37,098 nt of DNA. Source: a virus. The notes beneath the pieces were generated by a model, which saw only the letters and a list, made by a program, of their open reading frames with translations, ran no database searches and was not told the origin of the DNA. The DNA is taken from the IMG/VR virus record IMGVR_UViG_3300048837_002269, positions 1-37,098 of that record. One strand, given 5' to 3'. The translations under genes and the position numbers were made by a program. Of the stretch, positions 2,159 through 19,948 are shown piece by piece (the stretch's first letter is position 1; every line of letters begins with the position of its first letter).

Positions 2159-2160
2159 GT

Positions 2161-3549: not shown

Positions 3550-3565
3550 GATCGACCTCCATTGG

Positions 3566-5265: not shown

Positions 5266-5581
5266 GCTTACCTCCATTGGTGCAGTGCCTGATTATCGGT
5301 TCGATTGAATCGGCCGTGAGCAACCGGCCGGTTAGACGAAACACGGTCCAGCCCAACAATTGGGCGGCATTGTATTTTTCGCAGTCGCCTTCAAACCCAG
5401 TGCCGCGCGTGTGTCGGCCACCACTCCATATACCGCCCTCCAGTTCGATGGCCACCCTTGCGGACGGGAGTGCCCTATCGAACCGCCATCGCCGCGACGG
5501 ATGGAATCGGAACTCCATAGCCAGCGCCGGGCCGCGCAAGGCACGCCATAGCGTGTCGAATTTCAATTCAAGCCGGGACAT
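5237..5581 (-). CDS. Endonuclease-like protein (Vsr/PDDEXK-type fold)
   Basis: This 114-residue protein has EFRFHPSRRWRFDRALPSAR, then VAIELEGGIWSGGRHTRG and a Lys-containing CEKYNAAQLLGW. This is the D-(x)n-ExE-like arrangement of small phage nucleases related to Vsr and resolvase-type PDDEXK enzymes. Asp in RRWRFD, Glu in IELEGG and His/Lys residues are the probable metal and catalytic positions. It may nick or cut DNA during replication, recombination or packaging (inference). The start at 5581 has AAGGTGG upstream; the longer open frame reaching 5890 runs through the preceding gene. It overlaps the gene before it by 14 bp and the one after it by 29 bp. Confidence 0.75.
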   Translation of the reverse strand: MSRLELKFDTLWRALRGPALAMEFRFHPSRRWRFDRALPSARVAIELEGGIWSGGRHTRGTGFEGDCEKYNAAQLLGWTVFRLTGRLLTADSIEPIIRHCTNGGKHEADIHRNR

Positions 5582-5939
5582 TCGCCACCTTCTCAACCCT
5601 TGCCCACCCAAGACCATGTCGCAATCGCCTATGGATGGCCGGTCCCGACACGCCCAACCACCGGGCGGCCGCCATAATGGACGCGAACTCCCGGCCGCTC
5701 TCCTGGTGAACGATTCGTTGTTCGGCACGGCCACCCGCATGGGTGGGCGCGTGCTGCACAATGCCATCGCGCTCGAACTTGTTGCGAACACGCGCCGGCG
5801 CGTCAACCAGCCATCCAAGTCGCCGCTCGATGGCATTCCACTGCTCGCGGTATTCGCGGACCCGGCGGGCGCGCTCCATGTCTGGATCATCCGGATACAT
5901 AACGTCCGTCACATATTTGAGTGCGGCCGGGTTGTTCAT
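5568..5939 (-). CDS. Helix-turn-helix / NUMOD1-like DNA-binding protein
   Basis: The product has 123 residues. The C-terminal part (GREFASIMAAARWLGVSGPA, then IHRRLRHG) looks like the NUMOD1-type HTH module that accompanies homing and HNH nucleases. The N-terminal half is charged and helical (ERARRVREYREQWNAIERRL). The start overlaps the stop of the HNH gene as ATGA. Next to an HNH protein upstream and a Vsr-like nuclease downstream it could act as a targeting or regulatory partner, but this is only contextual. It may alternatively be a stand-alone regulator. Confidence 0.6.
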   Translation of the reverse strand: MNNPAALKYVTDVMYPDDPDMERARRVREYREQWNAIERRLGWLVDAPARVRNKFERDGIVQHAPTHAGGRAEQRIVHQESGREFASIMAAARWLGVSGPAIHRRLRHGLGWARVEKVANVPA

Positions 5940-6262
5940 GCCGCCCCCCGCGCCGGGGCCTTCAGGGCCGAGTTTTCCGACAGGTCCAGTATTTCAAGAT
6001 GCTCGGGGTTGACGCATGACGGATTGAAGCATGTATGGTGAATCGTCGTGCCGACGGGGATGGTCCCGCGAGCGAACGTATATGCGAAGCGGTGCGCCAA
6101 CACCTTGCACTTGCGATACCAGAATCCACCATAGCCCTTGTGATTGCGCGTACCATTCCATTGCCAGCACGGCGAACAATTGCCTTTGTGCTTTACATGG
6201 GACAGGAAACGCACGACCTCTTGCGCCGACGGGGCTGGGAGCGGCTTGCCGTATTCAAACAT
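5936..6262 (-). CDS. HNH endonuclease (homing-type)
   Basis: The 108-residue product has the HNH_3-type pattern found in phage homing nucleases: CWQWNGTRNHKGYGGFW, AHRFAYTFARG and the catalytic HHTCFNPSCVNPEHLE with its Zn-binding cysteines. It would make site-specific nicks or double-strand breaks using a divalent metal. The start at 6262 has GGGAGGG nine bases upstream and lies inside the 3' end of the DnaC-like gene; the frame extends to 6328 but without a comparable site. As a free-standing HNH gene between replication genes it may be a selfish insertion. Confidence 0.8.
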   Translation of the reverse strand: MFEYGKPLPAPSAQEVVRFLSHVKHKGNCSPCWQWNGTRNHKGYGGFWYRKCKVLAHRFAYTFARGTIPVGTTIHHTCFNPSCVNPEHLEILDLSENSALKAPARGAA

Positions 6263-6899
6263 TGGTTCCCTCCCGGAACGACCACCCGAACGCGCGAACA
6301 ACCCCGCCCGTTTGACGTAGCCGATCAAACAGGGGGCCTATTCCATCCCCGCCGGGTCCATCAAGAATCGTCTGCAGCTCATCGGGGTCGGCAACGTTGC
6401 CGATCAGGAGTGTCGGCAGCACTTGGCGATATCGTTTATCAAGGATTCGGTGCAACAGTCGCTGTTCCGCATCCGTACCGCCGCGCTTGTCGATTTCATC
6501 CAGGACCAGAAGATGCGGTGTGGTGTAATCACGGATGATGCTCATTTCGGAACGTGTGGCGGCTGGACCATACGCCTCGCGACAGGTGGCGAACAGGTCG
6601 GCCAGCACCTCATAACGTGCAGGCTGTGCATGGGTTAAAATATCGGCCTTCAGAACCTCCACGCCGATTTGTGTCTTGCCGCTCCCTGGGGAACCGATCA
6701 GGGCAACCATGCCCCACTGTTGAATTTTGTGGTTCACCTTCACGATTGCGCTACACCAGCCCGCGTGCTGGATCAGGCCGCGCTTGGATTGCTCAATATG
6801 CCTCACTGGTGCGCCGGACAGGCGGAACATGCGCCCAACTTGCTCGTTGCGGCGCGCGCGGGCGTGTTGTTCGCGAATCTCCTCATAGGATAGCGCCAC
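6255..6899 (-). CDS. DnaC/IstB-like ATPase, putative helicase loader
   Basis: This AAA+ protein of about 214 residues has Walker A GSPGSGKTQ and Walker B HLLVLDEIDKRGG, then a sensor-like TLLIGN. The closest known type is the DnaC/DnaI helicase loader, which would place a replicative helicase at the phage origin. No helicase gene lies in the window, so it probably recruits the host enzyme. The start is uncertain: the frame is open to 7205, but upstream sequence is the overlapping 127-residue gene. The GTG at 6899 fits a 17-bp overlap with that gene but has no clear Shine-Dalgarno site, which suggests coupled re-initiation. Confidence 0.75.
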   Translation of the reverse strand: MALSYEEIREQHARARRNEQVGRMFRLSGAPVRHIEQSKRGLIQHAGWCSAIVKVNHKIQQWGMVALIGSPGSGKTQIGVEVLKADILTHAQPARYEVLADLFATCREAYGPAATRSEMSIIRDYTTPHLLVLDEIDKRGGTDAEQRLLHRILDKRYRQVLPTLLIGNVADPDELQTILDGPGGDGIGPLFDRLRQTGGVVRAFGWSFREGTNV

Positions 6900-7266
6900 T
6901 CGTTGAGCCGGTGGCGCGCCGGGCGGGGCTGGCGTTGCCGCGCCTGGATGCGGTGACGCGGGCGCGGAATCGTTCGCGGTCTCGCCAGAGGCTGGCGAGC
7001 CTGTGCCCGTCGTATCCCCGCCACTTGTCGGCGAGATAGGCCGCATAGATGGCATCGAGAATTTCAACGCTTCCGGCCCATTCGAGCAACTGGCTGACGT
7101 GCCGATTGCATCGGCCGTGCCAGGGGTAGTCGTAGGGATAGACGACCCTGAATCGTCTTGCCCACCGGGCGGATGCTTCACGGTACTCGGTTGCCTCTGG
7201 TGCATTTTCTCTCCTATTTGCCACTTCCGGGCCGAACAGCCCCGCAGTGACGGGTTTTGGTGTCAC
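6883..7266 (-). CDS. Small replication-associated protein, function unknown
   Basis: The 127-residue product has a helical core (RRFRVVYPYDYPWHGRCNRH, then SQLLEWAGSVEILDAIYAAY) and a basic, low-complexity C terminus rich in Arg, Ala and Ser. No family was recognised with certainty. The position directly before a DnaC-like loader, overlapping it by 17 bp, is where phages often keep an origin-binding or primosomal protein, so a replication role is inferred. No ATG fits: a GTG at 7266 preceded by GAGG with a seven-base gap is the best start, while the ATG at 7401 would overlap the Sak4-like gene. Confidence 0.55.
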   Translation of the reverse strand: MTPKPVTAGLFGPEVANRRENAPEATEYREASARWARRFRVVYPYDYPWHGRCNRHVSQLLEWAGSVEILDAIYAAYLADKWRGYDGHRLASLWRDRERFRARVTASRRGNASPARRATGSTSGAIL

Positions 7267-7295
7267 GGAACAGCCTCGCTGGTTTATCGTTGTGG

Positions 7296-8174
7296 TTATG
7301 CCCCCGCCGCCGGCAGTCGGCCCTTCACGAACTCGATGCACTTGGCCAGTGCATCGGCTGGCATATCCTCCCATTGGTCCACGCCAGCCTTGGCGAACCA
7401 TTTTTCGGTAGTCCCCTCCGGTAGCCGGACCACCTCCATGAGGGACTTGATTTCGGCAATGTCCGCCGGGCGTGCCAATTCAATCGCGGCCGCTTCACGC
7501 TCCATCACCTTGGGGTCGTGCCGATCTTTGAATGCCTGGTATGACCACTCGAACACATCCAGGTCAGGAAAGCCCGTAAGGCGAGATTTTTCCACGCGGG
7601 CGTATCGCTTGGGGCCACGCGCCTTCGCCTGAGCGCCATCAAAGCTGGTGCTGCGCCCAAGCTGTAGAACGAGGTCAAACCAGTAGTCCAACTGCTTCCA
7701 CCCGTCGAATGTGTTGCCCAGTTTTTTCAGGTTATCGCCATATTCGGCTTTGGCATGGGCCGTCACGATGACATTCATATCGAGAGCGTTCAGCAGGTTG
7801 GCCAGGCGTTTCATTTGTTTGTTCGCCTCGCCGTAATGACGCCCGAAATCACTGCCTACCTTGGCCTCGCATTTTTCCAGCAGGTCGTTGTACGCAGTGG
7901 TAATTGGATCAATCACCAGCGTTCGATATTCATGGCGTTCGGTGAGCAGTGATTTCACTTCGGCTATGAGTTCGCCCATTTCGGTCGTCTGAAACACCAC
8001 GCCGCCCACAGAGTCGATCTCCGAACCGTAATTGTCTGTTCCTCGCTCCGTGTCGATGATGTACGGTCGTGGGAATTGACGCGCGGCCGTGGTTTTGCCG
8101 ACTCCGGCCGGGCCAAACATGAACAATTTGAGCCGCTTCTGCGACTGGTCGGGTTTTTTGGCTCTGAGTGCCAT
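7296..8174 (-). CDS. Sak4-like recombination ATPase (RecA-fold, AAA_24 type)
   Basis: The product has 292 residues. It begins with the compact P-loop domain of phage Sak4/AAA_24 proteins: Walker A GPAGVGKTT (21-29), DTERGTDNYG, Walker B-like TLVIDPITTAYNDL and a sensor segment VIVTAHAKAEYG. These proteins bind single-stranded DNA and promote strand annealing together with the phage SSB, whose gene lies just upstream in the same operon. The C-terminal 80 residues are acidic and helical and may contact SSB. It is probably the recombinase of phage 1; element 2 on the right instead carries Bet. Confidence 0.8.
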   Translation of the reverse strand: MALRAKKPDQSQKRLKLFMFGPAGVGKTTAARQFPRPYIIDTERGTDNYGSEIDSVGGVVFQTTEMGELIAEVKSLLTERHEYRTLVIDPITTAYNDLLEKCEAKVGSDFGRHYGEANKQMKRLANLLNALDMNVIVTAHAKAEYGDNLKKLGNTFDGWKQLDYWFDLVLQLGRSTSFDGAQAKARGPKRYARVEKSRLTGFPDLDVFEWSYQAFKDRHDPKVMEREAAAIELARPADIAEIKSLMEVVRLPEGTTEKWFAKAGVDQWEDMPADALAKCIEFVKGRLPAAGA

Positions 8175-8198
8175 CTATGTAACTCCTCTGGTTTGTGG

Positions 8199-8720
8199 TT
8201 AGTTGTTACTGGGGTTGGCGTATGCGCGAACCTTGTGCTCTGCGTCCGCTCCGAACAGTTCGCCAATCCGCGCCAGGATTGCCTCCCGGCCGCATTCACA
8301 CTCACCATCCGCTTCGCGGACATATAATCGTGGGACAGACATTGGGAGCAGCGTATCGGCGTTAAGGACCGGAATTCCGGCCGCGCCGGCGATGGCGACA
8401 AATAGGCGGGATTCACGATTAAACTGCCAGCCGTGCATTGCCGCCACAACGCGAGCGTTCAACAGGTGGGTCAATGTGATATTCCTGGACCAGTTGTCCC
8501 GTCCCGCCAATTCGCCTGAATACACTGCGTACCCACGCCGCCGCAATCCAGACGCGACATCACTGGGCTTTCCCGCCAGGCTTAATCCCGGTACGAGAAA
8601 CAGGCGAACGGGTTGGTTGGAAACACACACACCACGCTCCGCCAGCCCGGCGCACCGAGCCAACGCAAGCGAGTACAACACGACCAGCGCCATGGCGACA
8701 ACGATTATGAGTGACAGCAC
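8199..8720 (-). CDS. Membrane-anchored DUF4406-like (nucleoside deoxyribosyltransferase-type) protein
   Basis: The product has about 173 residues. An N-terminal membrane helix (SLIIVVAMALVVLYSLALA) is followed by a soluble domain with RLFLVPGLSLAGKPSDVASG, RRRGYAVYSGELAGR and HGWQFNRESRLFVAIAGAAG. The order of these blocks mirrors DUF4406, including the GW-x-x-S-x-x-A-x-x-E/A segment, and so resembles the C-terminal domain of the gene at 4282-5265. The first block is degenerate (VPGLSL instead of AGPM). GTG at 8720, five bases after GAGG, is the preferred start; a TTG at 8741 overlapping the ssb stop is an alternative. Function is unknown; a membrane-tethered nucleotide-binding role is only a guess. 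Confidence 0.55.
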   Translation of the reverse strand: MLSLIIVVAMALVVLYSLALARCAGLAERGVCVSNQPVRLFLVPGLSLAGKPSDVASGLRRRGYAVYSGELAGRDNWSRNITLTHLLNARVVAAMHGWQFNRESRLFVAIAGAAGIPVLNADTLLPMSVPRLYVREADGECECGREAILARIGELFGADAEHKVRAYANPSNN

Positions 8721-8737
8721 GATTACCTCGATTCGTT

Positions 8738-9163
8738 TCAAAACGGAATGTCGTCAGGGCTAAAGTGTGACTGGTTGCCAATCGCGTCTGGTTGGGGCTG
8801 GCGTGGCGAGTTGCCGCCCTGGTGGGCGTCTGAGCCACGATCATTCATAAACTGGAACGACTCAACGACCACCGTGATTTTGCTCCGCTTAGCCCCATCC
8901 TTGCCCTCCCACTGGTCGAACTTCAGTCGCCCCTCAATCAGGATGGCGCGGCCCTTAGCCAAATGTTGGTTGATAACTTCGGCTGTCTTGCCGAATGCGA
9001 CACAATCCACGAACGCCACTTCTTCGCGACTCTCACCGGCCGGGGATTTCCACTTGCGATTGATTGCGATGCCAAAATCAGCAACGCACAATTGTGACGG
9101 CAAGTGCTTTAGCTGCGGGTCGCGCGTCAAGTGGCCCGCCAGAATGACCTTGTTGTAGTTCAT
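8738..9163 (-). CDS. ssb: Single-stranded DNA-binding protein
   Basis: This OB-fold protein has 141 residues. It opens MNYNKVILAGHLTRDPQLKH, has the family segments VADFGIAINRKWKSPAGE, VDCVAFGKTAEVINQHLAKG and LIEGRLKFDQWEGKDG, and ends in the acidic tip DDIPF that binds partner proteins. It should coat single-stranded DNA during phage replication and support the Sak4-like protein two genes downstream. The start at 9163 has GGGAGGT upstream; an in-frame ATG at 9280 would add a tail unlike SSB. Linker residues are Gly, Gln and Pro rich, as usual. Confidence 0.95.
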   Translation of the reverse strand: MNYNKVILAGHLTRDPQLKHLPSQLCVADFGIAINRKWKSPAGESREEVAFVDCVAFGKTAEVINQHLAKGRAILIEGRLKFDQWEGKDGAKRSKITVVVESFQFMNDRGSDAHQGGNSPRQPQPDAIGNQSHFSPDDIPF

Positions 9164-9344
9164 ACCTACCTCCCAAGCCGGTCCAACGCCCTTCGGCACT
9201 GGTCCGGTGTGTTCGGCCGTCGATAATGCGGACCCCGCGAACAGGTCGGGGCGGCTCGTTTCCGCGTGCCGCTGGTTCATGCGGCCCGAAGTCGTACGGC
9301 TGCTTCGGCTGTCAGTAGTTATTTCGGTATCGCACAGTGGGACT

Positions 9345-9410
9345 TTAGGCGATGCCACCGAGCCACATGGCCAGGGTGATGAGTATTGCCAAGTTGAATG
9401 CCTTATACAT
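9345..9410 (-). CDS. Tiny membrane peptide, 21 residues
   Basis: This short reading frame, MYKAFNLAILITLAMWLGG plus two residues, is almost entirely one hydrophobic helix. GAGGAA lies nine bases ahead of the ATG, and the Shine-Dalgarno region sits next to the stop of the upstream coiled-coil membrane gene, so it is positioned as a coupled partner. Small phage membrane peptides of this size can modulate holins or envelope proteins, but nothing here identifies a role. Existence is supported only by the ribosome site, context and composition. Confidence 0.45.
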   Translation of the reverse strand: MYKAFNLAILITLAMWLGGIA

Positions 9411-9421
9411 GGTCGTGTTCC

Positions 9422-9685
9422 TCATTTAGATGGGCGACTCTCAACAATCCCCAGTCGCTCTTTAATCTGCGACAAATCATCCAGAATTCGTTCCCACCGC
9501 TCATCCGTTTTGTCTTGGCGCGTGCGGAGTTCGTCCACGCGAGCCTCGATAGCCACGACGCGCATTCGTATGGATGAAATCTCTTGGCCCGGAGCATCAA
9601 TCGTCCGAACAATCGGGATCGTGACGGCCACCGCCGCCAGGAGGCTTCCCAGTGAAACCAATGTGTTCCTTCCAACCTGCTTCAT
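9422..9685 (-). CDS. Membrane-anchored coiled-coil protein (XhlA-like layout)
   Basis: The 87-residue product has an N-terminal membrane helix (TLVSLGSLLAAVAVTIPIV, about 8-26) followed by a heptad-rich helix (VVAIEARVDELRTRQDKTDE, then RWERILDDLSQIKERLGI). This layout resembles haemolysin/XhlA-type accessory proteins of phage lysis cassettes, though with the membrane segment first. It is the first gene of the leftward operon. There is no Shine-Dalgarno sequence; instead its ATG lies 7 bp after a TATATT hexamer, so a leaderless mRNA is predicted. The open frame to 9817 would run back through the promoters and is rejected. Confidence 0.65.
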   Translation of the reverse strand: MKQVGRNTLVSLGSLLAAVAVTIPIVRTIDAPGQEISSIRMRVVAIEARVDELRTRQDKTDERWERILDDLSQIKERLGIVESRPSK

Positions 9686-9692
9686 GCTGGCG

Positions 9693-9730
9693 AATATACT
9701 GGCCGTCCGTGTGGTTACATTGGTGAAAAA
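9693..9730 (-). promoter_or_regulatory. Leftward early promoter with 17-bp box and TATATT -10
   Basis: Read on the minus strand, the box ACCAATGTAACCACACG (9724-9708) is followed by exactly 9 bases and then TATATT (9698-9693). The ATG of the coiled-coil membrane gene begins 7 bases later, which places the probable start of transcription on the start codon. There is no TTGACA-like -35; the box covers that region instead. This is seen directly in sequence; promoter function is inferred from four copies with the same spacing. Confidence 0.7.
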
Positions 9731-9752
9731 TATCGACCAATGTAACCACACG
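9708..9752. repeat. Perfect 17-bp inverted repeat at the divergent control region
   Basis: The left arm 9708-9724 and the right arm 9736-9752 are exact reverse complements (ACCAATGTAACCACACG on the right), separated by 11 bp (9725-9735). Each arm is the upstream box of one of two back-to-back promoters. An arrangement like this is typical of an operator bound by a dimer or two cooperating dimers. Confidence 0.9.
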
Positions 9753-9767
9753 AAGGCCCGATATAAT
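9736..9767 (+). promoter_or_regulatory. Rightward promoter with 17-bp box and TATAAT -10
   Basis: The box ACCAATGTAACCACACG (9736-9752), 9 bases, then a consensus TATAAT (9762-9767). An ATG opening a 12-codon frame (MSWPNGDATLNK, 9774-9812) starts 6 bases later. The transcript would run into a region with no convincing gene and reach a terminator near 10020. Confidence 0.7.
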
Positions 9768-9773
9768 GTGGGC

Positions 9774-10025
9774 ATGTCGTGGCCGAATGGGGATGCGACA
9801 CTAAATAAATGACCCAACCCCGGATACCGGATACCTCGCCATATGGGCTGGTGTGCGCTGTCCGCTCAATCCGTAAGCCGCCCGCGAAATAACGGGCGCG
9901 GGACGTTCCCTCCCTGGTGCGCCGTGTGTGGCCAAAGCCGGAGTTGGGGAACAGCACAAACGGACAGCCATTCCGATTGTGCCGAGCTTTCAACAGGGCG
10001 CTATGTTTCGCCCTGTTATTTTCCC
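9774..10025 (+). ncRNA. Candidate small RNA or attenuated leader between promoter and terminator
   Basis: This stretch is bounded by the rightward box promoter and the terminator at 9992-10024 and would give an RNA of about 250 nt. It contains an initial 12-codon frame and a GC-rich hairpin around 9876-9902 (CCGCCCG and CGGGCGCGG arms, imperfect). The 117-codon frame from 9843 and a minus-strand 92-codon frame lack ribosome sites and recognisable content. It may be an antisense or regulatory RNA, a leader read through into the late genes, or simply a spacer. Confidence 0.35.
9992..10024 (+). terminator. Rho-independent terminator
   Basis: Perfect 9-bp stem AACAGGGCG (9992-10000) and CGCCCTGTT (10009-10017) with an 8-base loop, followed by ATTTTCCCTTTT. 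It would stop the transcript from the promoter at 9736-9767 before the HNH-terminase genes, which have their own box promoter at 10168. Confidence 0.7.
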
Positions 10026-10167
10026 TTTTGTGGGGGGAACCTTAGGAGGGGGGCCTACCTCCGTATTCCGCTTCCTGCCTCTGGGCTGATGATAGTAAAC
10101 ACCACACAACACAAAGACGATGAATCTGGCATGAATAACAGAGCCGATTTTCTCAACTGGAATTTTC

Positions 10168-10199
10168 ACCAATGTAACCACACGGATATTGGATAACAT
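10168..10199 (+). promoter_or_regulatory. Rightward promoter with 17-bp box ahead of the packaging genes
   Basis: The box ACCAATGTAACCACACG (10168-10184), 9 bases, then TAACAT (10194-10199), and 7 bases later the ATG of the zinc-ribbon gene at 10207. The -10 is weaker than in the central pair but the geometry is identical. A 24-bp stretch ending at 10185 is identical to that at the capsid promoter (14673-14696). Confidence 0.65.
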
Positions 10200-10206
10200 C
10201 GCGCCG

Positions 10207-10383
10207 ATGAGCAGGGTATGTGAAACTCCGGGCTGCGGGCGCTGGCGAGTGAAGGGCGAGCGATATTGCAATGAATGCCGCGTGACCATCATCGAAAAGC
10301 TGGAGGCTGATGGGTATCTACAGTCCAACGATGAGATTAACCAGCGCAGGCCCAAGGAGGTTCGATGCCCACGAAAGCAGTGA
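10207..10383 (+). CDS. Small zinc-ribbon-like protein, 58 residues
   Basis: The product starts MSRVCETPGCGRWRVKGERY and continues CNECR, giving a CxxxxGC...CxxC arrangement likely to bind one zinc ion. The rest is helical and charged. It is the first gene of the rightward arm. No Shine-Dalgarno site precedes the ATG, but the ATG lies 7 bp after a -10-like hexamer, so it is predicted to be translated from a leaderless mRNA. It overlaps the HNH gene by 19 bp. Small zinc proteins at this place may help packaging or regulation, but the role is unknown. Confidence 0.7.
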   Translation: MSRVCETPGCGRWRVKGERYCNECRVTIIEKLEADGYLQSNDEINQRRPKEVRCPRKQ

Positions 10384-10691
10384 GCTTCAGTCAGAGACAA
10401 CCGCGCCGGCGCACTGTTGACCGCAGGGCGTCTACGGCGGAACGCGGCTACGGCGGGCAGTGGCAGAAGCTGCGTTTATGGCACTTGAGGCACAATCCAT
10501 TATGTGTTTTTTGTGATTCAGCAGCATCAATCGTGGACCACATTAAACCGATTACCGCAGGCGGCGAACCATTGAACCCATACAACCTTCGGTCGGTGTG
10601 TCCCAATTGTCACGCCCGGCTGACCGCGAATTACCGGCGCACGGGCGTAAACGAGATGGCCGGGATCGTTCGTTGTGGGGTAGGGGGCTGA
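10365..10691 (+). CDS. HNH endonuclease of the packaging module
   Basis: This 108-residue HNH protein has CVFCDSAASIVDHIKPITAG, NPYNLRSVCPNCHARLT, that is, the two CxxC zinc ligands around the catalytic DHI. HNH proteins encoded next to terminase genes are known to stimulate terminase cutting in HK97-type and related phages. AGGAGG lies four bases before the ATG. It precedes TerS by 74 bp with no recognisable terminator between them. A packaging role therefore follows from both family and context. Confidence 0.9.
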   Translation: MPTKAVSFSQRQPRRRTVDRRASTAERGYGGQWQKLRLWHLRHNPLCVFCDSAASIVDHIKPITAGGEPLNPYNLRSVCPNCHARLTANYRRTGVNEMAGIVRCGVGG

Positions 10692-10765
10692 AAATGTTTC
10701 AGTTCCATGACCCAATGACCGAACCGCCAGCTTTACGTTAATTTGCCTCAAATTGGGATTTTTTT

Positions 10766-11194
10766 ATGCGCGGTCGCAAGCCCACAATCAATCATGGACG
10801 ACGGCCGAACACGACGGCCGATGCTCCCGCCCTTCCCGATTGGCTGTCTCCCGATGCCCGCCAGGAATGGAGTCGCGTTTTGGGCCTCATCGCCACCGCC
10901 GGGGCGTTGTCGCGGCCGGATGCTGATGTTTTGTCGGCCTACTGTGAGACGCTGGTTTTGTTTCGGCGAGCCATCGCGATGCTTCATCGGGACGGCATCA
11001 CGTTTGTTTCAGACGACCGCATGATTAAGCGTCACCCGGCCGTAGGCATTGCATCAGATGCGCGTAAAGACCTGGTTCGCCTTGCCGCCGAACTGGGCAT
11101 GACGCCGGTGTCTCGCCAGCGGCTGAATGTCGGCGTGGAGCAGGTGGATGATTTGCAGGATTTCCTGAACGGCGGAATGAAGCTGGCGAAATGA
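10766..11194 (+). CDS. terS: Terminase small subunit (P27-type)
   Basis: The 142-residue product has the P27-family layout: an N-terminal basic stretch (RGRKPTINHGRRPNT), then ALPDWLSPDARQEWSRVLGL and an LSRPDADVLSAYCETLVLF helix, and ends with a C-terminal KDLVRLAAELGMTPVSRQRL block. It recognises phage DNA and hands it to the large subunit. The ATG follows a T-rich stretch with only a weak GGGA site. The stop overlaps the TerL start as ATGA, so the two are coupled. Confidence 0.85.
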   Translation: MRGRKPTINHGRRPNTTADAPALPDWLSPDARQEWSRVLGLIATAGALSRPDADVLSAYCETLVLFRRAIAMLHRDGITFVSDDRMIKRHPAVGIASDARKDLVRLAAELGMTPVSRQRLNVGVEQVDDLQDFLNGGMKLAK

Positions 11195-12867
11195 GCGACG
11201 AAGCCTATCCATCCTTTTGCCTCACCGCCAGCGCCCGCGCCGCGTATGATGCTGCGCGTGCCGGTGGCTGGTCGGAATGGGTGGTGGGCATGGCCGATGT
11301 TCATGCCATCCATGAAGGATGCTATTTTGATTTGCCCGCCGCCGAACGAGTGCGAGAGTTTTTTGAGAAACATTTGCGTCACGCCACGGGGGATTTTAAG
11401 GGCAGGCCGTTTACCCTGCTGGACTGGCAATGGCGGGATGTTATTGGCCCACTGTTCGGTTGGAAGCGGGGGGATGGCCGACGCCGGTTTAATCGTGGGT
11501 ATCTGTCGTGCGCCAAGAAAAACGGCAAAAGTGGCCTGAGTGCCGGTATTGCGCTCTACCTGCTGTTGGCCGATGGTGAAGCCGGCGCCGAGGTTTATTC
11601 CGCTGCGGCGGATCGGGATCAGGCGTCGTTGATTTACCGCGAAGCCGTCAAAATGATCCTTGCGAATCCGTCGCTTGGGCGGATTTGCGGCCACGTCGAT
11701 TCAAGCAAGACCATCACAGGGCCAGGTCGATGCTTCTATAAAGCCCTGAGCGCGGAGGCTCCCACAAAAGAGGGATTGAACGCATCAGCCATCATCTTCG
11801 ATGAGCTACACGCACAACCACACCGTGAGTTGTGGGACACACTGCGTTACGCCGGGCGTGCCCGTCGTCAACCGCTATTGCTTGCAATCACTACGGCGGG
11901 ATCGGACAAGGAATCCATTTGCGGCGAGCAGTACGAATATGCCAATCGCGTCCTGTCGGGCGAAGTGGCGGATACGTCGTTTTATGCCAGGATTTACGAA
12001 GCTGGCATGGATGATTGGGGCTTAGAAGAGACTTGGCGCAAGGCCAATCCAAGCCTTGGCGTCACGGTTCAATTGGACCAGTTTCGCGCGGACTTTCTGG
12101 AGGCGCGGGAGTCGCCCGCCAAAGAGGCCACGTTTCGCCGGTACTCACTCAATCAATGGGTGCAGACGGCGGATGCGTGGCTGTCGATGGATCAATGGGC
12201 GGCGTGTGGTGCTGATCCGGTTGCCCCGGCCTCTCTCTCCGGCCGGAAATGTTGCGGGGGGCTGGACCTGTCGGCCACCGACGACACCACCGCGTTGGTG
12301 CTGCTGTTCCCGGCGGACGATGGATATATCGACGTGTTGCCGTGGTTCTGGTTGCCATCGGGAAACGCGCACAACCTCGAGCGCAAGCACCGCGTACCAT
12401 ACCGGGCTTGGGCGAAGAAGGGCTTCATCACGCTGACCGAAGGGAACGTGGTGGACTATGACGCCGTGCGCGGCCAGATTAACGCGATTGCACAGCAATA
12501 CGATATCCAGAAGCTGGCGATTGACCGCAAGTTTCAGGGACAGGCCCTCGAAAACGACCTTATCGCCGATGGTTTTGATGTTGTCCCGGCTGGCCAGGGG
12601 TGGATAAGTCAAGACCTTCCGGCAAAGGAACTGGAGCGACTGCTGAAGGCTGGCCGCATTCGCCATGGCGGAAACCCAATCCTGTCGTGGCACGCCTCAA
12701 ACGTGGTCGTTGATATCGACAAGGCTGGTAATTATTCGATCAACAAGCGTAAGAGCCGGAGCAAAATCGACGGCATCGCCGCGTTTTTAATGGCCCTGCT
12801 CTGCCATATGAATGGTGGCCGGTCCAGCACCGTTGAGGCGTCCGGAGAATTGATTGTGCTTTCGTAG
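11191..12867 (+). CDS. terL: Terminase large subunit
   Basis: This 558-residue packaging motor has an N-terminal ATPase with a Walker A variant (SCAKKNGKSG, about residue 106-114) and Walker B (SAIIFDELHAQPH, about 200-210), followed by the TTAGSDKES coupling segment. The C-terminal RNase H-like nuclease shows acidic positions in GLDLSATDDTTALVLLF, KLAIDRKFQG and KSRSKIDGIAAFLMAL. It drives DNA into the prohead and cuts concatemers. Its length and motif order match P27/HK97-type TerL proteins. It overlaps TerS by 4 bp and precedes the portal gene. Confidence 0.95.
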   Translation: MSDEAYPSFCLTASARAAYDAARAGGWSEWVVGMADVHAIHEGCYFDLPAAERVREFFEKHLRHATGDFKGRPFTLLDWQWRDVIGPLFGWKRGDGRRRFNRGYLSCAKKNGKSGLSAGIALYLLLADGEAGAEVYSAAADRDQASLIYREAVKMILANPSLGRICGHVDSSKTITGPGRCFYKALSAEAPTKEGLNASAIIFDELHAQPHRELWDTLRYAGRARRQPLLLAITTAGSDKESICGEQYEYANRVLSGEVADTSFYARIYEAGMDDWGLEETWRKANPSLGVTVQLDQFRADFLEARESPAKEATFRRYSLNQWVQTADAWLSMDQWAACGADPVAPASLSGRKCCGGLDLSATDDTTALVLLFPADDGYIDVLPWFWLPSGNAHNLERKHRVPYRAWAKKGFITLTEGNVVDYDAVRGQINAIAQQYDIQKLAIDRKFQGQALENDLIADGFDVVPAGQGWISQDLPAKELERLLKAGRIRHGGNPILSWHASNVVVDIDKAGNYSINKRKSRSKIDGIAAFLMALLCHMNGGRSSTVEASGELIVLS

Positions 12868-12881
12868 GCTGGAGGATTGTA

Positions 12882-14084
12882 ATGGGTTGGCTGACAAGGT
12901 TTTTTTCGCGGGATGTTCCGATGAACATCGCATCGCCGGAAATGTGCGGCGTGTTCGTCGGCGGAACCGACGCCGGTGTAAGCGTCACACACCAGACCGC
13001 GCTATCGGTTAGTCCTGTCTGGCGGGCCGTGCAGATTCTTGCCGATGCGATTGTTGGCCTGCCCATCCAGGTCAAAGACGACGGCAATGACAAGCTGCGC
13101 GGACATCCGATTTCGCGGCTTCTCCACAATGACGGAGAGGCCAATGAATTTATGACCGCCGTGGCGGTGAAGTCGGCGATGATGAGCAATATTGCCCTGT
13201 GGGGCAACGGATACGCCTACATCCAGCGGGACAATACCGGCCAGCCGACGGCCCTATACCCGCTGCCATCCAGCCATACATATGCCCGGCGCACGGGCGG
13301 ACAGGTGAACTATGTTACGCGGGTTGGCCTGACAACCCACACACTGGGGGCACAGGATGTTCTGCATGTCCTGGGGCCACTGACACTGGATGGGCTGTGC
13401 GGTGTTTCACCCATTGAGTACGCCAAGCAGACCATCGGAATTTCAATTGCGTTGCAGAAATTCGCGGCCAAGTTCTTTGGCCAGGGCGGCAATATCGGTG
13501 GCATCATCGAAACGCCACCAATGAAAGAGGAAGCACAGCGGAACTTTCTCGAATCGTGGCGGCGGACCTATACCGGCCCCGATGCCGCATTCAAAATCGC
13601 CGCACTGACCGGCGGCATGAAGTTCATTCGCACCACCGCCGATCCAAAAGAGTCACAGTCACTTGAAAGCCGCACGTTTCAAGTGCGCGAGGTGGCGAGA
13701 ATATGGGGCATCCCTCCACACATGCTTGGCGACATGGAGAAGTCCAGCTACGCCAGCATTGAAGCGCAGAGCATGGATTTTTATCAGGGCACAATCCAGC
13801 CATACGTCATTCGTTGGGAAGCGGAGATTTCACGCAAGTTGCTGGCTGAATCAGAGAAGGGCCGGTTGGCCGTGCGGCTCAATATGGACGCCAAGCTGCG
13901 CGGAACGACCAATGAGCGATATGACGCATACACCAAAGGGCGACAGGGTGGATGGCTTTCGATCAATGATATTCGTCGGCTGGAAAACCTACCGTCGGTT
14001 GACGGCGGCGACACTTACCTACAGCCGTTAAACATGACGCCCACCGATTCGGATGGTGCGTCCAATACGGAGGAACAGAAGTGA
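12882..14084 (+). CDS. Portal protein (HK97 gp3 family)
   Basis: The 400-residue product has the family pattern: SVSPVWRAVQILADAIVGLP near residue 42-61, a GNGYAYIQRD segment, ARIWGIPPHMLGDMEKSSYA and a C-terminal SINDIRRLENLPSVDGGD. It forms the dodecameric ring through which DNA enters and to which the tail joins. GGAGGATTGTA precedes the ATG. It lies between TerL and the protease in the standard order and shares its stop with the protease start (TGATG). Confidence 0.95.
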   Translation: MGWLTRFFSRDVPMNIASPEMCGVFVGGTDAGVSVTHQTALSVSPVWRAVQILADAIVGLPIQVKDDGNDKLRGHPISRLLHNDGEANEFMTAVAVKSAMMSNIALWGNGYAYIQRDNTGQPTALYPLPSSHTYARRTGGQVNYVTRVGLTTHTLGAQDVLHVLGPLTLDGLCGVSPIEYAKQTIGISIALQKFAAKFFGQGGNIGGIIETPPMKEEAQRNFLESWRRTYTGPDAAFKIAALTGGMKFIRTTADPKESQSLESRTFQVREVARIWGIPPHMLGDMEKSSYASIEAQSMDFYQGTIQPYVIRWEAEISRKLLAESEKGRLAVRLNMDAKLRGTTNERYDAYTKGRQGGWLSINDIRRLENLPSVDGGDTYLQPLNMTPTDSDGASNTEEQK

Positions 14085-14704
14085 TGGAAACGAGAATCAT
14101 TGACGTTTATGAGGGCGAACCGCTCGCGCTGCGCATCGAGCGAGAGGCGGACAAGCCGCCGCGTTTGGCGGGCTACGCCATTCGGTTTAACAGTTTGTCG
14201 AAAGACCTTGGCGGCTTCCGCGAGCGTGTGATGCCGGGCGCTTTGGATGCGGCAATCGGGTCCGGCGGCGACATTCGGGCCCTGATGGACCATGACGCGG
14301 GAAAATTACTGGGTCGAACGAGCGTCGGAACGCTGCGTGTCGGCATAGATGAACTTGGGTTGTGGTTCAATGTCGATTTACCCGACACACAATACGCCCG
14401 CGACCTCGAATCCCTGGTGGTGCGCGGCGACACAAGGGGGATGAGCTTCGGATTTACAGTACCGCGCGACGGCGGGGAGCGTTTCGTTCGGGAGAATGGC
14501 GGGGCCGTGCGGGAGTTGTTGCGCGTTGACCTCAAGGAAATCACTGTTACGTCCATTCCCGCATACACTGAGACCAGCCTGTATTTGCGTGTTGACCCCG
14601 AACTTGCCCGACGCATCCCGCCCGCTCCAACCCCGAAGCGCGATGCTGCCGGTCGAAAATTAAAATGTGCGGATTTTCACCAATGTAACCACACGGCAAT
14701 CTGA
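14084..14704 (+). CDS. Prohead protease (HK97 family, peptidase U35/S78)
   Basis: The 206-residue serine protease matures the capsid by removing the scaffold domain. Seen are the substrate/beta core PPRLAGYAIRFNSLSKDLGG, the catalytic His region RALMDHDAGKLLGRT and the Ser region VRGDTRGMSFGFTVP, then a typical LKEITVTSIPAYTETSL. GGAGGAAC lies ahead of the ATG at 14084. Oddly, the last eleven codons (ADFHQCNHTAI) are written over the promoter box that serves the capsid gene, so the C-terminal tail is partly dictated by a regulatory sequence. Confidence 0.92.
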   Translation: METRIIDVYEGEPLALRIEREADKPPRLAGYAIRFNSLSKDLGGFRERVMPGALDAAIGSGGDIRALMDHDAGKLLGRTSVGTLRVGIDELGLWFNVDLPDTQYARDLESLVVRGDTRGMSFGFTVPRDGGERFVRENGGAVRELLRVDLKEITVTSIPAYTETSLYLRVDPELARRIPPAPTPKRDAAGRKLKCADFHQCNHTAI

Positions 14705-14710
14705 TACAAC
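14679..14710 (+). promoter_or_regulatory. Capsid-gene promoter with 17-bp box, inside the protease gene
   Basis: The box ACCAATGTAACCACACG (14679-14695), 9 bases, then TACAAC (14705-14710). Unlike the other three it has a normal leader: the capsid ATG at 14757 has its own GAAAGGA ribosome site. A dedicated promoter ahead of the most abundant virion protein makes biological sense. Confidence 0.65.
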
Positions 14711-14756
14711 GTGGCTCTAGACACAGAAACAATCATCGCTGAAAGGAAAATCGTCT

Positions 14757-15965
14757 ATGTGGCAGAAGATCAAGGCGTTGCGCGAGGAACGAGGCGTGAT
14801 TTTGGCCGACATGAAGGCCATCTTGGATAAGGCTGAAGCCGAAAAGCGGGAACTTGTTGCCGATGAGTCGGCCAGGTTCGATGAGTTGTCTGGCAAGGCC
14901 GAGGCGAAGCTGACCGAAGTGAATCGCTATGAAAAGCTCCACGGCCTGGAACGGGCCGGCGCACAGGACCAGAATCAGGCCGGTCCCGGACGGCACGACA
15001 TTGATCCGGAACGACGCGACGAGGAAGACGCCGGCAAGGGTGAGACTCGTTCTGAGTTTCTCGCGTATCTGCGTGGGAAGCCATTGGCGGAACTGCGGGC
15101 CTTGACCGTTGGCGGCATGGGCGTTGTGGGTGATCGACCCTTCTACAGTCAACTCGTTACGTCCATGAAGGGGTTTGCGGGCGTGCGCGAGGCCGGGGCC
15201 ACAGTGTTGCCCACGGTCAACGGAAACCCCCTGTCCATTCCGATGGCTGACGATACCGCCAACGTCGGGCAGATTGTGGCCGAGGGGGCGACCGACAACA
15301 CCGCCGTCGATGCCACAGTGACTACGAAAACCCTCAATGCGTACAAATTCGACTCGAAGTGGATCAAGATTTCCACCGAGATGTTGCGGGACTCGGAGTT
15401 TCCGATTGAGAAATTCATTCTCGATATCGCCGCCGAACGGATCGGCCGATATTTTAACGCCGAAACGACCAATGGCGACGGCACGGGGGAACCGGAAGGG
15501 TTTTTGGTTGGCGGGACCAGCGGCGCAACGTCGGCCAGCAACAACGCGATTGACTACGAAGACCTTCTTGACCTTGTGCATAGCGTTGACCCCGCCTACC
15601 GTGCCAGCGGGCGATGCGTGTTCATGTTCAGTGACCTGACGTTGGCCGCAATCCGAAAGCTCAAAGATGGCGATAATCGCTATGTCTTTTCGCCGGGCGA
15701 AGCGGGTGTGCCCGGTTCGATCTTGGGCTATCGGTACATCGTGAACAACAACATGCCCGAACTCTCTGCGGGTGTGAGCAGCAAGGTTGTCGCGTTCGGC
15801 GATTTCTCCAAGTATTTCGTTCGCGACGTGACCACGCCGGATATCGTGGTGGCCAGGGAACTGTTCGCAGGCGACGGACTGGTCGGCTATCGCGTGCTGT
15901 CGCGACACGACGGCAAGCTGACAGACGCGAAGGCCGTCAAGTACCTGAAGTTGGCCGCTTCATAG
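14757..15965 (+). CDS. Major capsid protein (HK97 fold) with N-terminal scaffold domain
   Basis: The product has 402 residues. The first about 100 are a charged helical delta/scaffold region (KALREERGVILADMKAILDK, KAEAEKRELVADESARFDEL) that the neighbouring protease should remove. The rest is the HK97 capsid fold: GATVLPTVNGNPLSIPMADD, KISTEMLRDSEFPIEKFI (start of the long spine helix), then GTGEPEGFLVGG and FGDFSKYFVRD near the end. AAAGGAAAATCGTCT precedes the ATG. A box promoter starts 47 bp upstream, and an 11-bp-stem hairpin follows the stop. Confidence 0.95.
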   Translation: MWQKIKALREERGVILADMKAILDKAEAEKRELVADESARFDELSGKAEAKLTEVNRYEKLHGLERAGAQDQNQAGPGRHDIDPERRDEEDAGKGETRSEFLAYLRGKPLAELRALTVGGMGVVGDRPFYSQLVTSMKGFAGVREAGATVLPTVNGNPLSIPMADDTANVGQIVAEGATDNTAVDATVTTKTLNAYKFDSKWIKISTEMLRDSEFPIEKFILDIAAERIGRYFNAETTNGDGTGEPEGFLVGGTSGATSASNNAIDYEDLLDLVHSVDPAYRASGRCVFMFSDLTLAAIRKLKDGDNRYVFSPGEAGVPGSILGYRYIVNNNMPELSAGVSSKVVAFGDFSKYFVRDVTTPDIVVARELFAGDGLVGYRVLSRHDGKLTDAKAVKYLKLAAS

Positions 15966-15980
15966 TCGCACTCTCCTCGT

Positions 15981-16014
15981 TGGCTGGCCGGTGGGTCGTA
16001 TCGCCGGCCAGCCA
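15981..16014 (+). terminator. Strong hairpin after the capsid gene, no U-tract
   Basis: TGGCTGGCCGG (15981-15991) pairs perfectly with CCGGCCAGCCA (16004-16014) across a 12-base loop. No run of T follows, so it is more likely an mRNA 3'-end stabiliser or processing structure than a full terminator. It sits between the capsid stop and a tRNA-like element. Confidence 0.5.
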
Positions 16015-16019
16015 TTCAT

Positions 16020-16090
16020 TGCGGGATAGCACAACAGTAGTGCGCCGGGTGGGCAACCCGGAGGCGGCGGTTCGCATCCGCCTCCCGTGA
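16020..16090 (+). tRNA. tRNA-like cloverleaf, possibly degenerate (anticodon position GGC)
   Basis: The sequence folds as a full cloverleaf: acceptor TGCGGGA with TCCCGTG (7 bp, two G-U), TA at positions 8-9, D stem GCAC/GTGC, anticodon stem CCGGG/CCCGG with the 7-base loop TGGGCAA, a 4-base variable loop, and T stem GGCGG/CCGCC around TTCGCAT. D-arm pairing GCAC/GTGC looks like a compensated variant of the common GCTC/GAGC. Against function: position 33 is G not U, position 58 is C not A, the D loop lacks GG, and no CCA is encoded. It is either a decayed phage tRNA or a tRNA-mimicking RNA. Confidence 0.5.
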
Positions 16091-16092
16091 TT

Positions 16093-16152
16093 ATGTGGCC
16101 ATGGGATGATGATTGGGAAGATGACGTTCCCGGCGCGGATGAAACGGTGTGA
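16093..16152 (+). CDS. Tiny acidic Trp-rich ORF, 19 residues
   Basis: The frame reads MWPWDDDWEDDVPGADETV, strikingly acidic with three Trp. It lies between the tRNA-like element and the connector gene. No Shine-Dalgarno site precedes it (the upstream bases are the end of the tRNA-like element), so expression is uncertain. It may be translated from a processed transcript starting near its ATG, or be spurious. Confidence 0.3.
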   Translation: MWPWDDDWEDDVPGADETV

Positions 16153-16160
16153 GGCGGTAA

Positions 16161-16736
16161 ATGGGATTGGCGGTCGTTACATCTTCAGCCCCGCCGATTA
16201 CCGCCGATGAGGTAGGCGACTTTTTGCGACTGGATGATTTTGATGCCCAGTCCGATCTACTCGATAGCCTCATCGCCGCCGCCGTGGAGTATTTCGCCAA
16301 CGAAACACGCCAGCAACTGACGCAGGCAACGCTACGGATGACCTCTGATGCGTTCCCGTGCTGCAACACGATCCGCCTACCGCGTGGTCCGCTTCAATCA
16401 GTTACGTCCATCAAATACTTGGACCGGGAAGGCGCACAGCAAACGCTCGCCGCCGGAACGTACACCGTTGATGCTGACGCCCGCCCCGGCCGGATCGTGT
16501 TGAACGACGGTGAATCGTGGCCAGACACACTCGACCAGGCGAATGCGGTTGAGGTGACGTATGTTGCGGGCTACGCCACGACGAATTTGCCGACAGCACT
16601 GCGGATCGGGATCATGCTGCTGGTGGGCCACTGGTATGTAAATCGCGAAGCGGTGGTAACGGGAACCATCGCGACGCAACTGCCGCTGTCCGTTGAGTCC
16701 ATCATCAACCAACACGCCTACCCGGAGGCGGTGTAA
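16161..16736 (+). CDS. Head-tail connector protein (gp6-like)
   Basis: The 191-residue product matches the phage gp6/PhiE125 gp8-type adaptor pattern: PPITADEVGDFLRLDDF followed by a long helix (LLDSLIAAAVEYFANETRQQ), TLRMTSDAF and LPRGPLQSVTSIKYLD, then a beta segment with YTVDADARPGRIVLNDG and a C-terminal ALRIGIMLLVGHWYVNREAV helix. It forms the ring below the portal. GAGGCGGTAA precedes the ATG. The stop overlaps the next start as TAATG. Confidence 0.88.
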   Translation: MGLAVVTSSAPPITADEVGDFLRLDDFDAQSDLLDSLIAAAVEYFANETRQQLTQATLRMTSDAFPCCNTIRLPRGPLQSVTSIKYLDREGAQQTLAAGTYTVDADARPGRIVLNDGESWPDTLDQANAVEVTYVAGYATTNLPTALRIGIMLLVGHWYVNREAVVTGTIATQLPLSVESIINQHAYPEAV

Positions 16737-17800
16737 TGTCCAGCATCAACCTACAACGTGAGGCCCCGGCAACCACCGACGAATTACCCGAAGGCGTATC
16801 CGCCGAACACCGTTATTACACGACTGCGCGGGAGCAGGCGGTGTCTGACGCCATTGCCGATGCCACCACAACCGATGCGGGCGATCTAATCACTGGCACG
16901 CTGGACGACGCCAGGTTGTCCGCCGACGCACAGGACGCCATCGCATTGCGGCATGACGCTGTCACCATCGGCGGGGCCAATGGGCTGTCTCTGGGTGGCC
17001 AACAAATCTCGCTGGTGTTGGCAACCGGCTCAAGTGCCGGCGCAATGTCGGCAGTGGACAAGGCGACGCTCGATGCGGCAACGGCTGCGAACACGCTCGA
17101 AACGCTGGTCAGGCGCGACAATGTCCTGGGCGGCATTTCCGTGGGACCGATTAGCACACTAAACGTGGCTGGCGTTCCGTCGCTCGGCGTCTATTGCGGC
17201 ATTGGCGGAACTGTCACGGTCGGCAACAGCGGCCAGATCAAAGCCAATTCCACTGGTCTTGGTTTTTTCAACACAGCCCCCATCGCCAAGCCATCCAGTG
17301 GGACAGACATGCGCGTAGCCCTGATCAATTTGGGCTTGCTGAATGGCGGGGCGACGCCACTGAATTTGAACAACGGGGCGTTGACGTGTGGCCCAATAAA
17401 CATGGGTGCGGGCAGCCTTACGGGTTATTCATTTTTTCATACAGGAGCGGTCTTTTCATTGGAGAATGGTCAGGGCCTTCGATTGGGTAACAGCATCGGT
17501 GTGAGGTTCGCGAGTGGGGCCGCGTACAGCAGTGCGGATGCCGCCGTTTTTCAATACTCCACGACCAACACCATCAAGCTGGTCACGGGCTTAAACGGCT
17601 CCACGAGGGCGCATCTGCAAATGGGGTCGTTGAACGCGACGGGTCCGCAATACACTGGTGCACCATCATCCGCGCCAATGGATGCCGATATCGCTAACAA
17701 TCAGATCAGCGTGTATCTCGATGAATCGGGGAATAACCTAAAATTCCGCATCCGAAAATCGGATGGGACGTATAAAACCGCGACACTCGCAATGACGTAA
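16736..17800 (+). CDS. Fibre- or appendage-like structural protein
   Basis: The 354-residue protein has an N-terminal helical region with AEHRYYTTAREQAVSDAIAD, a pattern widely seen where phage fibres attach, then glycine- and asparagine-rich beta sequence (VAGVPSLGVYCGIGGTVTVG, NGALTCGPINMGAGSLTG) typical of trimeric appendages, and a compact end (YLDESGNNLKFRIRKSDGTY). Such genes usually lie at the end of the tail module; here it sits between connector genes, so it could be a head decoration or neck fibre. It is translationally coupled to the connector gene. Specific function is inferred. Confidence 0.6.
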   Translation: MSSINLQREAPATTDELPEGVSAEHRYYTTAREQAVSDAIADATTTDAGDLITGTLDDARLSADAQDAIALRHDAVTIGGANGLSLGGQQISLVLATGSSAGAMSAVDKATLDAATAANTLETLVRRDNVLGGISVGPISTLNVAGVPSLGVYCGIGGTVTVGNSGQIKANSTGLGFFNTAPIAKPSSGTDMRVALINLGLLNGGATPLNLNNGALTCGPINMGAGSLTGYSFFHTGAVFSLENGQGLRLGNSIGVRFASGAAYSSADAAVFQYSTTNTIKLVTGLNGSTRAHLQMGSLNATGPQYTGAPSSAPMDADIANNQISVYLDESGNNLKFRIRKSDGTYKTATLAMT

Positions 17801-17811
17801 AGGAAGCGTAC

Positions 17812-18129
17812 ATGGCAGACATGATATTGGACGCGCCGGTTGCAATAGTCCCGCCCTCAAAAGCGGTGACGATTGATCGTCTGATTATCAATCGCCTGTG
17901 GATCGAATATCAGGACGGCAAATGGCCCGCGCGGTTGAACCTGAGCTATTTCGGGCGGGACGATCAGGGACAGAAGGTTTTCGCGCGCAACGCCGATGGA
18001 TCGAGGGTGGCCGAGGAACTGGCCGTGGAGGATATTTTCGCCACGGGCAATAACGATCTTGATGCGGGGATTGCGTCGATCATGCGCGGATTGCTAGAGT
18101 TGTATTTGGCGTCTAAGAGCCAGGGATAA
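17812..18129 (+). CDS. Hypothetical virion-module protein, 105 residues
   Basis: Not recognised. The product starts MADMILDAPVAIVPPSKAVT and contains RLNLSYFGRDDQGQKVFARN followed by a helical C terminus (DLDAGIASIMRGLLELYLAS). AAGGAAGCGTAC gives a good ribosome site, and the stop overlaps the next start (TAATG). Its place between a fibre-like gene and a beta-rich protein suggests it belongs to the same appendage or neck structure, perhaps as a chaperone or small fitting protein (inference). Confidence 0.6.
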   Translation: MADMILDAPVAIVPPSKAVTIDRLIINRLWIEYQDGKWPARLNLSYFGRDDQGQKVFARNADGSRVAEELAVEDIFATGNNDLDAGIASIMRGLLELYLASKSQG

Positions 18130-18767
18130 TGCCCACCATTACGAAGCCAATTTCGATCAGTGGCGCACCAGCCAACACGCCGTTGTTCATCACCGTGACC
18201 GACACTGCCGGCGCGGGCCTTCTCGCGCGGACCAGCATCGGCACAACGGATGCCTACGGCCGACTCAATGCGTCCGTGGCGGGGTGGGACTTGGCGTGGC
18301 GCGGATTCGCAACCATTGATGGCACGGGATATCTGCGGTCGATTGCGTTTGATCCAGAGTCGTACGACTGGACCGACACCGAGCGGGCGCAAATCCGTTA
18401 TCGACTTGGCCTCGATGGTGACGCCATCGAACCAACATCGCCCGCGAGCGATCCGGTTATCATTTTGCCGCCCGACGATCCGGCCCAATGCGCGATTTAC
18501 ATCGTCACCCGTGACACCAGCGGCGAGGCGGTTGGCGGCAAGACGATTCATTACCGGTTGCGATCCGGCCCCGGTGATACGGGGGCCAGCTATCCCCGCA
18601 CGATCCTGTCGGCCGTCAGTGACTCCAATGGACTGTGGCAAGCCACCGTGCCGCGTGCGTCGGTGTTTGATTTTTGGCGTGACTCCGTGGCGGGTGCGCC
18701 GGTACGGGTTGAGATTGATGCCGCCGCCACAATGGAGCTACCGGAAATTCTGGGCGCGTTCACTTAA
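18129..18767 (+). CDS. Beta-rich structural protein with a Transthyretin/Ig-like half
   Basis: The 212-residue product begins with a beta domain (ANTPLFITVTDTAGAGLLAR, TTDAYGRLNASVAGWD) and a linker YDWTDTERAQIRYRLGLDGD of a type I associate with structural proteins of planctomycete phages. The second half (AIYIVTRDTSGEAVGGKTIH, then GLWQATVPRASVFDFW) resembles an Ig/CarboxypepD_reg-like sandwich. No enzyme motif is seen. Coupled to the preceding gene; probably part of a neck or tail decoration. Confidence 0.55.
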   Translation: MPTITKPISISGAPANTPLFITVTDTAGAGLLARTSIGTTDAYGRLNASVAGWDLAWRGFATIDGTGYLRSIAFDPESYDWTDTERAQIRYRLGLDGDAIEPTSPASDPVIILPPDDPAQCAIYIVTRDTSGEAVGGKTIHYRLRSGPGDTGASYPRTILSAVSDSNGLWQATVPRASVFDFWRDSVAGAPVRVEIDAAATMELPEILGAFT

Positions 18768-18775
18768 ACCCCACA

Positions 18776-19114
18776 ATGACGAAAGACGAAATATTGCTGG
18801 CGGGCGAATTATCGCACCGGGTGAAGTTGCAGAGGCCCGTTCACACCTTGAATTCCGCCGGCGAAACGGTGGAGGGGTGGGACGATGTTCGTGAGGTATG
18901 GGCCTCTGTCCGGCCGGTTCGTGCGTATGAACAGGAGCGGGCCAAACAAGTTGAGCGGCCGGTGAGCCACGTTGTCCGGCTGCGGTATGCGGCGGACGTG
19001 GCCGGTGACTGGCGAATACGTTTTGGTGGGCTGGTGCTGAACGTTGTCGGCGTGGTGGACATCGGAATGCGGCGTGTCACGCTGGAACTGGCGTGCCAAC
19101 AGGTGTCGGAATGA
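18776..19114 (+). CDS. Head-tail joining protein (SPP1 gp16 / phage_H_T_join family)
   Basis: The 112-residue product fits the head-closure family: LLAGELSHRVKLQRPVHTLN, AGETVEGWDDVREVWASVRP, VSHVVRLRYAADVAGDWRI and VLNVVGVVDIGMRR. The small beta barrel closes the connector after packaging. There is no clear ribosome site eight bases after the previous stop, so coupling is likely. Its stop overlaps the next start as ATGA. Confidence 0.88.
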   Translation: MTKDEILLAGELSHRVKLQRPVHTLNSAGETVEGWDDVREVWASVRPVRAYEQERAKQVERPVSHVVRLRYAADVAGDWRIRFGGLVLNVVGVVDIGMRRVTLELACQQVSE

Positions 19115-19542
19115 AGCTGTACGGAACTGGATTCGACAAACTTCTCCGCAGGCTGGAAGGGCTGGAAAAGTCCGGAGCGCGCCGCGCCCAGCGCCGGGCG
19201 GTGCGTGCGGGCACGGCCATCCTGTTGAAGGCCGTCAAGGCCGCCACGCCGGTTAATGAGGGTGTACTGAAACGGATGCAGGCCAGCCGGGTATACGGGC
19301 GCGGCCTCAATCTGGCCGGGGTTGTGGGCGCGGACGCGGACAAGCTGAAACAGGCGGAGGTATCCGGCAAACGTCCAAGCAATATTGATTGGCTGGTGGA
19401 GAATGGCCACATGACGCCAGGCGGTACGTTTGTGCCGCCAAGCGGGTACATGCGTCGCGCTGCGGACCAGGCCATGCCGGTGGCCGAAGCCGCGTATGCC
19501 CGCGTGCTGGCTGAGTCCATCGAGGCGGAGGCATCGCGATGA
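19111..19542 (+). CDS. Tail-completion/neck protein (HK97 gp10 family)
   Basis: The 143-residue product begins MKLYGTGFDKLLRRLEGLEK and has the basic helical stretch ARRAQRRAVRAGTAILLKAV, then TPVNEGVLKRMQ and a C-terminal MRRAADQAMPVAEAAYARVL, as in HK97 gp10 proteins. It joins the neck to the tail. The ATG at 19111 overlaps the previous stop (ATGA), preferred over the earlier in-frame codon at 19093. Confidence 0.85.
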   Translation: MKLYGTGFDKLLRRLEGLEKSGARRAQRRAVRAGTAILLKAVKAATPVNEGVLKRMQASRVYGRGLNLAGVVGADADKLKQAEVSGKRPSNIDWLVENGHMTPGGTFVPPSGYMRRAADQAMPVAEAAYARVLAESIEAEASR

Positions 19543-19934: not shown

Positions 19935-19948
19935 TTGGAGGAATCGCA

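Follow-up and report, generated by a model that had tools for sequence, protein, structure and literature searches.

Which signal controls transcription in a bacterial virus that carries one short element ahead of replication, packaging and capsid genes alike, and what kind of factor would act on it? This question is raised by the IMG/VR record IMGVR_UViG_3300048837_002269, a metagenome-derived bacterial virus. The record was analysed over its whole length of 37,098 bp, and this stretch is called the window in the following. Its plus strand carries a packaging and head module of the HK97 type. The leftward operon encodes SSB, a Sak4-like protein and a DnaC-like loader, and the right part of the record codes on the minus strand for RecT, an integrase and a MerR-like partner. 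The genes relevant to the analysis are the following:

9422-9685, minus strand: first gene of the leftward operon (87 aa)
10207-10383, plus strand: first gene of the packaging operon (58 aa, two Cys pairs), overlapping the HNH gene
10365, plus strand: HNH gene of the packaging and head module
11191, plus strand: TerL gene of the same module
12882, plus strand: portal gene of the same module
14081-14704, plus strand: prohead protease gene of the same module
14757-15965, plus strand: major capsid gene (PF05065)

The N-terminal segment encoded by gene 9422-9685 is hydrophobic as judged by eye, and its frame is supported by codon usage. A tRNA-Ala (GGC) at 16019-16091 separates the capsid gene from the head gene that follows it. 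The record contains two integrases. The one at 1-1602 harbors an insert that matches HNH-endonuclease families; the one at 28389-29654 has the MerR-like partner gene, a relative of which adjoins an integrase-like gene in another locus (L322). An ISAs1-family transposase is encoded at 32045-33295. It is adjoined by the genes of an XRE protein and an apparent RelE-type toxin (33389-33970), which are probably a toxin-antitoxin pair.

The 17-bp box ACCAATGTAACCACACG is present in four exact copies in the window, at precisely the positions and on the strands reported in a first-pass annotation of this DNA:

9708-9724, minus strand: box copy A; a 23-bp version spans 9707-9729
9736-9752, plus strand: box copy B, 17 bp only
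10168-10184, plus strand: box copy C; the 23-bp version begins at 10163
14679-14695, plus strand: box copy D, within the final codons of the prohead protease gene; the 23-bp version begins at 14674

Copies A, C and D have the 23 bp TTTTCACCAATGTAACCACACGG in common, and copy B matches over 17 bp only. No further copy with up to three mismatches was found in the window; 0.11 matches are expected at this tolerance, and four copies were reached in 0 of 100 shuffles. Weaker copies are likewise missing from the window, where the best score outside the four sites does not exceed that of shuffled sequence. Copy A heads the leftward replication operon. A and B point away from each other in the interval that separates the leftward from the packaging operon, with 11 bp between them; C precedes the packaging operon, and D precedes the capsid gene. 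The box is asymmetric: its dyad and direct-repeat scores are no better than those of random 17-mers, and an internal palindrome or direct repeat was rejected as not above chance. At C and D the box is in frame with the ends of two open frames (10091-10198 and 14081-14704), which both read FHQCNHT with a stop within a few codons. A shared C-terminal peptide was nevertheless rejected as the reason for the repeat, because A and B are not used in this way and the link to the -10 would be left unexplained. The common reading frame is judged to be a coincidence.

Each copy is followed by a -10-like hexamer:

9693-9698, minus strand: hexamer A, TATATT (5/6 matches to TATAAT), 9 bp from the box
9762-9767, plus strand: hexamer B, TATAAT (6/6), the only perfect one of the four
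10194-10199, plus strand: hexamer C, TAACAT (4/6)
14705-14710, plus strand: hexamer D, TACAAC (4/6), preceded by TGA

The gap between box and hexamer is nine bases at all four sites, as had been claimed. Summed over the sites, this gap gives 19 of 24 possible matches to TATAAT; the next-best offset (12 matches) is a neighbor of the same hexamers. At no offset were nineteen matches obtained, either in 20,000 random sets of flanks from the window or when the flanks of the four sites themselves were shuffled 20,000 times. The flanks outside box and hexamer are hardly conserved, and the hexamers are therefore no by-product of a longer duplication. Because the spacing is fixed, the interpretation of the four sites as promoters is well supported. 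If +1 is placed at the ATG of 10207, the box extends from -39 to -23, and the hexamer lies at -13 to -8. The position of a -35 element falls within the box, and a TTGACA-like sequence is lacking: the best candidate is ATGTAA, with three of six matches at 16 bp. In the control region, no sigma-70 promoter-like site reached a threshold of 9/12. Given the missing -35 and -10 hexamers with only four matches, C and D would require a contribution of the box.

The distances to the next ATG are 7, 6 and 7 nt at A, B and C, respectively, in agreement with the first-pass annotation. The chance of finding an ATG 5-9 nt downstream at three or more of four sites is about 0.003. The annotation had taken these starts as leaderless, a proposal whose plausibility differs from site to site. 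Many genes of the window possess strong Shine-Dalgarno sequences, with about -8 to -10 kcal/mol for HNH, portal, protease, integrase and RecT; the values are poor at 9685 (-1.1), 10207 (-3.1) and 9774 (-1.4 kcal/mol), a pattern compatible with leaderless mRNAs at A and C. Position 10207 lacks a Shine-Dalgarno sequence, no better start was found for this gene, and leaderless translation is plausible here. It is less certain at 9685, where an alternative TTG start 24 nt downstream, at 9661, is preceded by GGAAGG (-5.5 kcal/mol); a leaderless start is perhaps used in this case. At 9774, translation of a gene is doubtful, and a terminated RNA whose 5' end contains the 12-codon frame is the better interpretation. 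For the capsid gene, the proposal has to be dropped: its start at 14757 lies 46 nt beyond hexamer D and has the moderate Shine-Dalgarno sequence GAAAGGA, so that promoter D is not leaderless.

Two features lie downstream of promoter B:

9774-10021, plus strand: putative RNA of about 250 nt from promoter B, beginning with the 12-codon frame MSWPNGDATLNK
9992-10017, plus strand: intrinsic terminator-like hairpin with a 9-bp stem and a T-rich tail

The hairpin is the best (first-listed) terminator-like site in bases 1-20000 and stands between B and C. A promoter with a perfect TATAAT, followed by a terminator ahead of C, would therefore give rise to an RNA of about 250 nt. Its predicted fold of -100.2 kcal/mol is modestly better than that of shuffled sequences (z -2.05), and a search of Rfam with this RNA gave no match. 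The arrangement recalls phage lambda, where PR', the promoter upstream of the late genes, yields a short 6S RNA that ends at the intrinsic terminator tR'. In the phage studied here, a short RNA would likewise end at a terminator ahead of the packaging operon; in contrast to lambda, the separate promoter C follows the terminator. By analogy, antitermination from promoter B into the packaging operon is possible.

Related phages were identified by searches with TerL, portal, capsid, Sak4 and RecT, at protein identities of up to 62-64%; similar DNA was not found in phage records. The box does not occur with up to two mismatches in the six closest records examined, and none of the loci found with the five proteins has a comparable box in at least three copies with a TATAAT-like hexamer. 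An exact box was not found elsewhere in IMG/VR. The GTDB genomes contain seven single exact matches, which corresponds to chance level and is fewer than the about 30 given by a uniform-base estimate for 257 Gb; none of the seven is followed by a good -10. A relaxed pattern of box and -10 matched at least 119 stretches in IMG/VR, and no contig had two matches among the 80 listed. A pair of partial matches that occurs in several related contigs, as read in locus L240, lies antisense within large-phage genes and was rejected.

Taken together, the four sites are best explained as one phage-specific promoter class, at which a DNA-binding activator acts and the box replaces the -35 element; we assign this interpretation a probability of about 0.5. 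A positive contribution of the box is most likely, given that its spacing is strict, a -35 is missing and the -10 hexamers of C and D are weak. This agrees with the initial proposal of a four-member promoter family with the box in place of the -35, serving the leftward operon, the RNA region, the packaging genes and the capsid gene. The activator, a phage product or a host protein recruited by the phage, would bind the asymmetric box of 17 bp, which lies at about -39 to -23. It would hold the host RNA polymerase on the TATAAT-like -10 and thus substitute for the missing -35 contact. In the presence of the activator, the leftward replication operon, the rightward packaging operon, the pre-capsid promoter and the short terminated RNA would be switched on together, with D as an extra promoter just ahead of the capsid gene.

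Some considerations count against an activator. If the replication genes depend on it, its own gene must use a promoter that has no box. Furthermore, with -39 to -23 occupied by such a factor, sigma region 4 would have little space for its usual contact. The DNA-binding candidates in the window are all small proteins of the excisionase, winged-helix or XRE type:

1573-2031: HTH_17 protein
26373-26732: winged-helix-like protein
27910-28290: HTH_17 protein
29642-29830: MerR-like protein
33389-33718: XRE protein

For the 119-aa winged-helix-like protein and the 58-aa protein with the Cys pairs, structure models were of low confidence and gave no useful match in the PDB. A more far-reaching version of the activator hypothesis, namely that a single phage-specified activator unrelated to MotA reads the 17-bp element from -39 to -23 and forms one switch for replication, packaging, capsid and regulatory RNA, and that the operon-head mRNAs are leaderless, appears rather unlikely.

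The best competitor of the activator is an immunity repressor, whose oriented, asymmetric operator would be the box. Located over the -35 region of lytic promoters, it would silence early and late genes in the prophage. We regard this as possible, albeit clearly less probable than activation. The integrases make a temperate lifestyle probable and hence immunity necessary, and a master repressor needs a common element that covers early as well as late promoters. Precedents are C1 of phage P1, whose asymmetric operator of 17 bp is found at 22 scattered sites (PMC8546580), and the L5-type phages with 13-bp asymmetric sites oriented with transcription (PMC9283540). However, occlusion does not demand that the spacing to the -10 is identical at four of four sites. 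Moreover, if the box had no positive role, C and D, with four of six matches in the -10 and three of six in the -35, should be very weak promoters. Among the scanned proteins of the phage part, no CI-like repressor was recognized, and the one clear XRE protein adjoins the apparent toxin gene.

It is improbable that box and hexamer constitute the promoter of an alternative host sigma factor or of a phage sigma factor that is absent from the record. The hexamer TGTAAC within the box resembles the -35 of some ECF promoters; the -10 hexamers look closer to the housekeeping TATAAT than to the -10 elements of ECF promoters. Three phages with related terminases encode Sigma70 region 2 proteins (L124, 5321-6085; L125, 2247-2774; and L129), so that sigma factors do exist in this phage group, whereas the window has no match to Sigma70_r2 (PF04542) or Sigma70_r4_2 (PF08281). 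The extent of 17-23 identical bp also exceeds what a sigma factor needs as a -35 element. The first-pass annotation had left the choice between an activator and an unusual sigma factor; the missing Pfam matches weaken the version with a phage sigma factor. In L124 and L125, a few kb separate the Sigma70 region 2 genes from the packaging genes downstream.

Finally, a recently spread recombination or boundary sequence with no promoter function would account for identical copies that no related phage has, but it is highly improbable, since the -10, at its fixed offset, is all that the flanks have in common and the copies stand at operon heads, oriented with transcription.

The fixed combination of box and -10 thus suggests that one virus-specific regulator jointly governs the early genes, the late genes and a small RNA. 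If the activator interpretation is true, early and late genes belong to one promoter class instead of following the usual cascade. The result would be a compact master switch in an uncultivated, probably temperate phage that has no close relative in the collections searched, and the box would offer a handle for fishing out the regulator.

That a phage box can replace the -35 element is known in general. In the middle promoters of phage T4, which are used through sigma appropriation by MotA and AsiA, a phage-specific box also substitutes for the -35 and keeps a constant distance to a -10 of the sigma-70 type. The MotA box is centered at -30, 12 +/- 1 bp from the -10, with the consensus (a/t)(a/t)(a/t)TGCTTtA (PMC2988021). 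It is about 10 bp long, differs in sequence and tolerates changes, whereas the present sites have 17 identical bp and a gap of exactly nine. Relatives of MotA or AsiA were not recognized among the proteins scanned, which comprised part of the ORFs. A divergent promoter pair resembling A and B is found in the Cluster O mycobacteriophage Corndog, whose promoters PL1 and PR2 are predicted to give leaderless mRNAs (PMC4351075). These promoters are SigA-like, however, and the 17-bp repeat of the Cluster O phages is a palindrome with more than 30 copies that are not tied to promoters. The operator of P1 C1 is likewise a repeated asymmetric element of 17 bp. It has a different sequence and is dispersed over 22 repressor sites, in contrast to the four sites with one spacing to the -10 described here. 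The operators and stoperators of L5-type mycobacteriophages share the short asymmetric element that is oriented with transcription; they are 13 bp long and occupy more than 20 sites, many of which lack a promoter, whereas in the present phage every copy of the box is accompanied by a -10.
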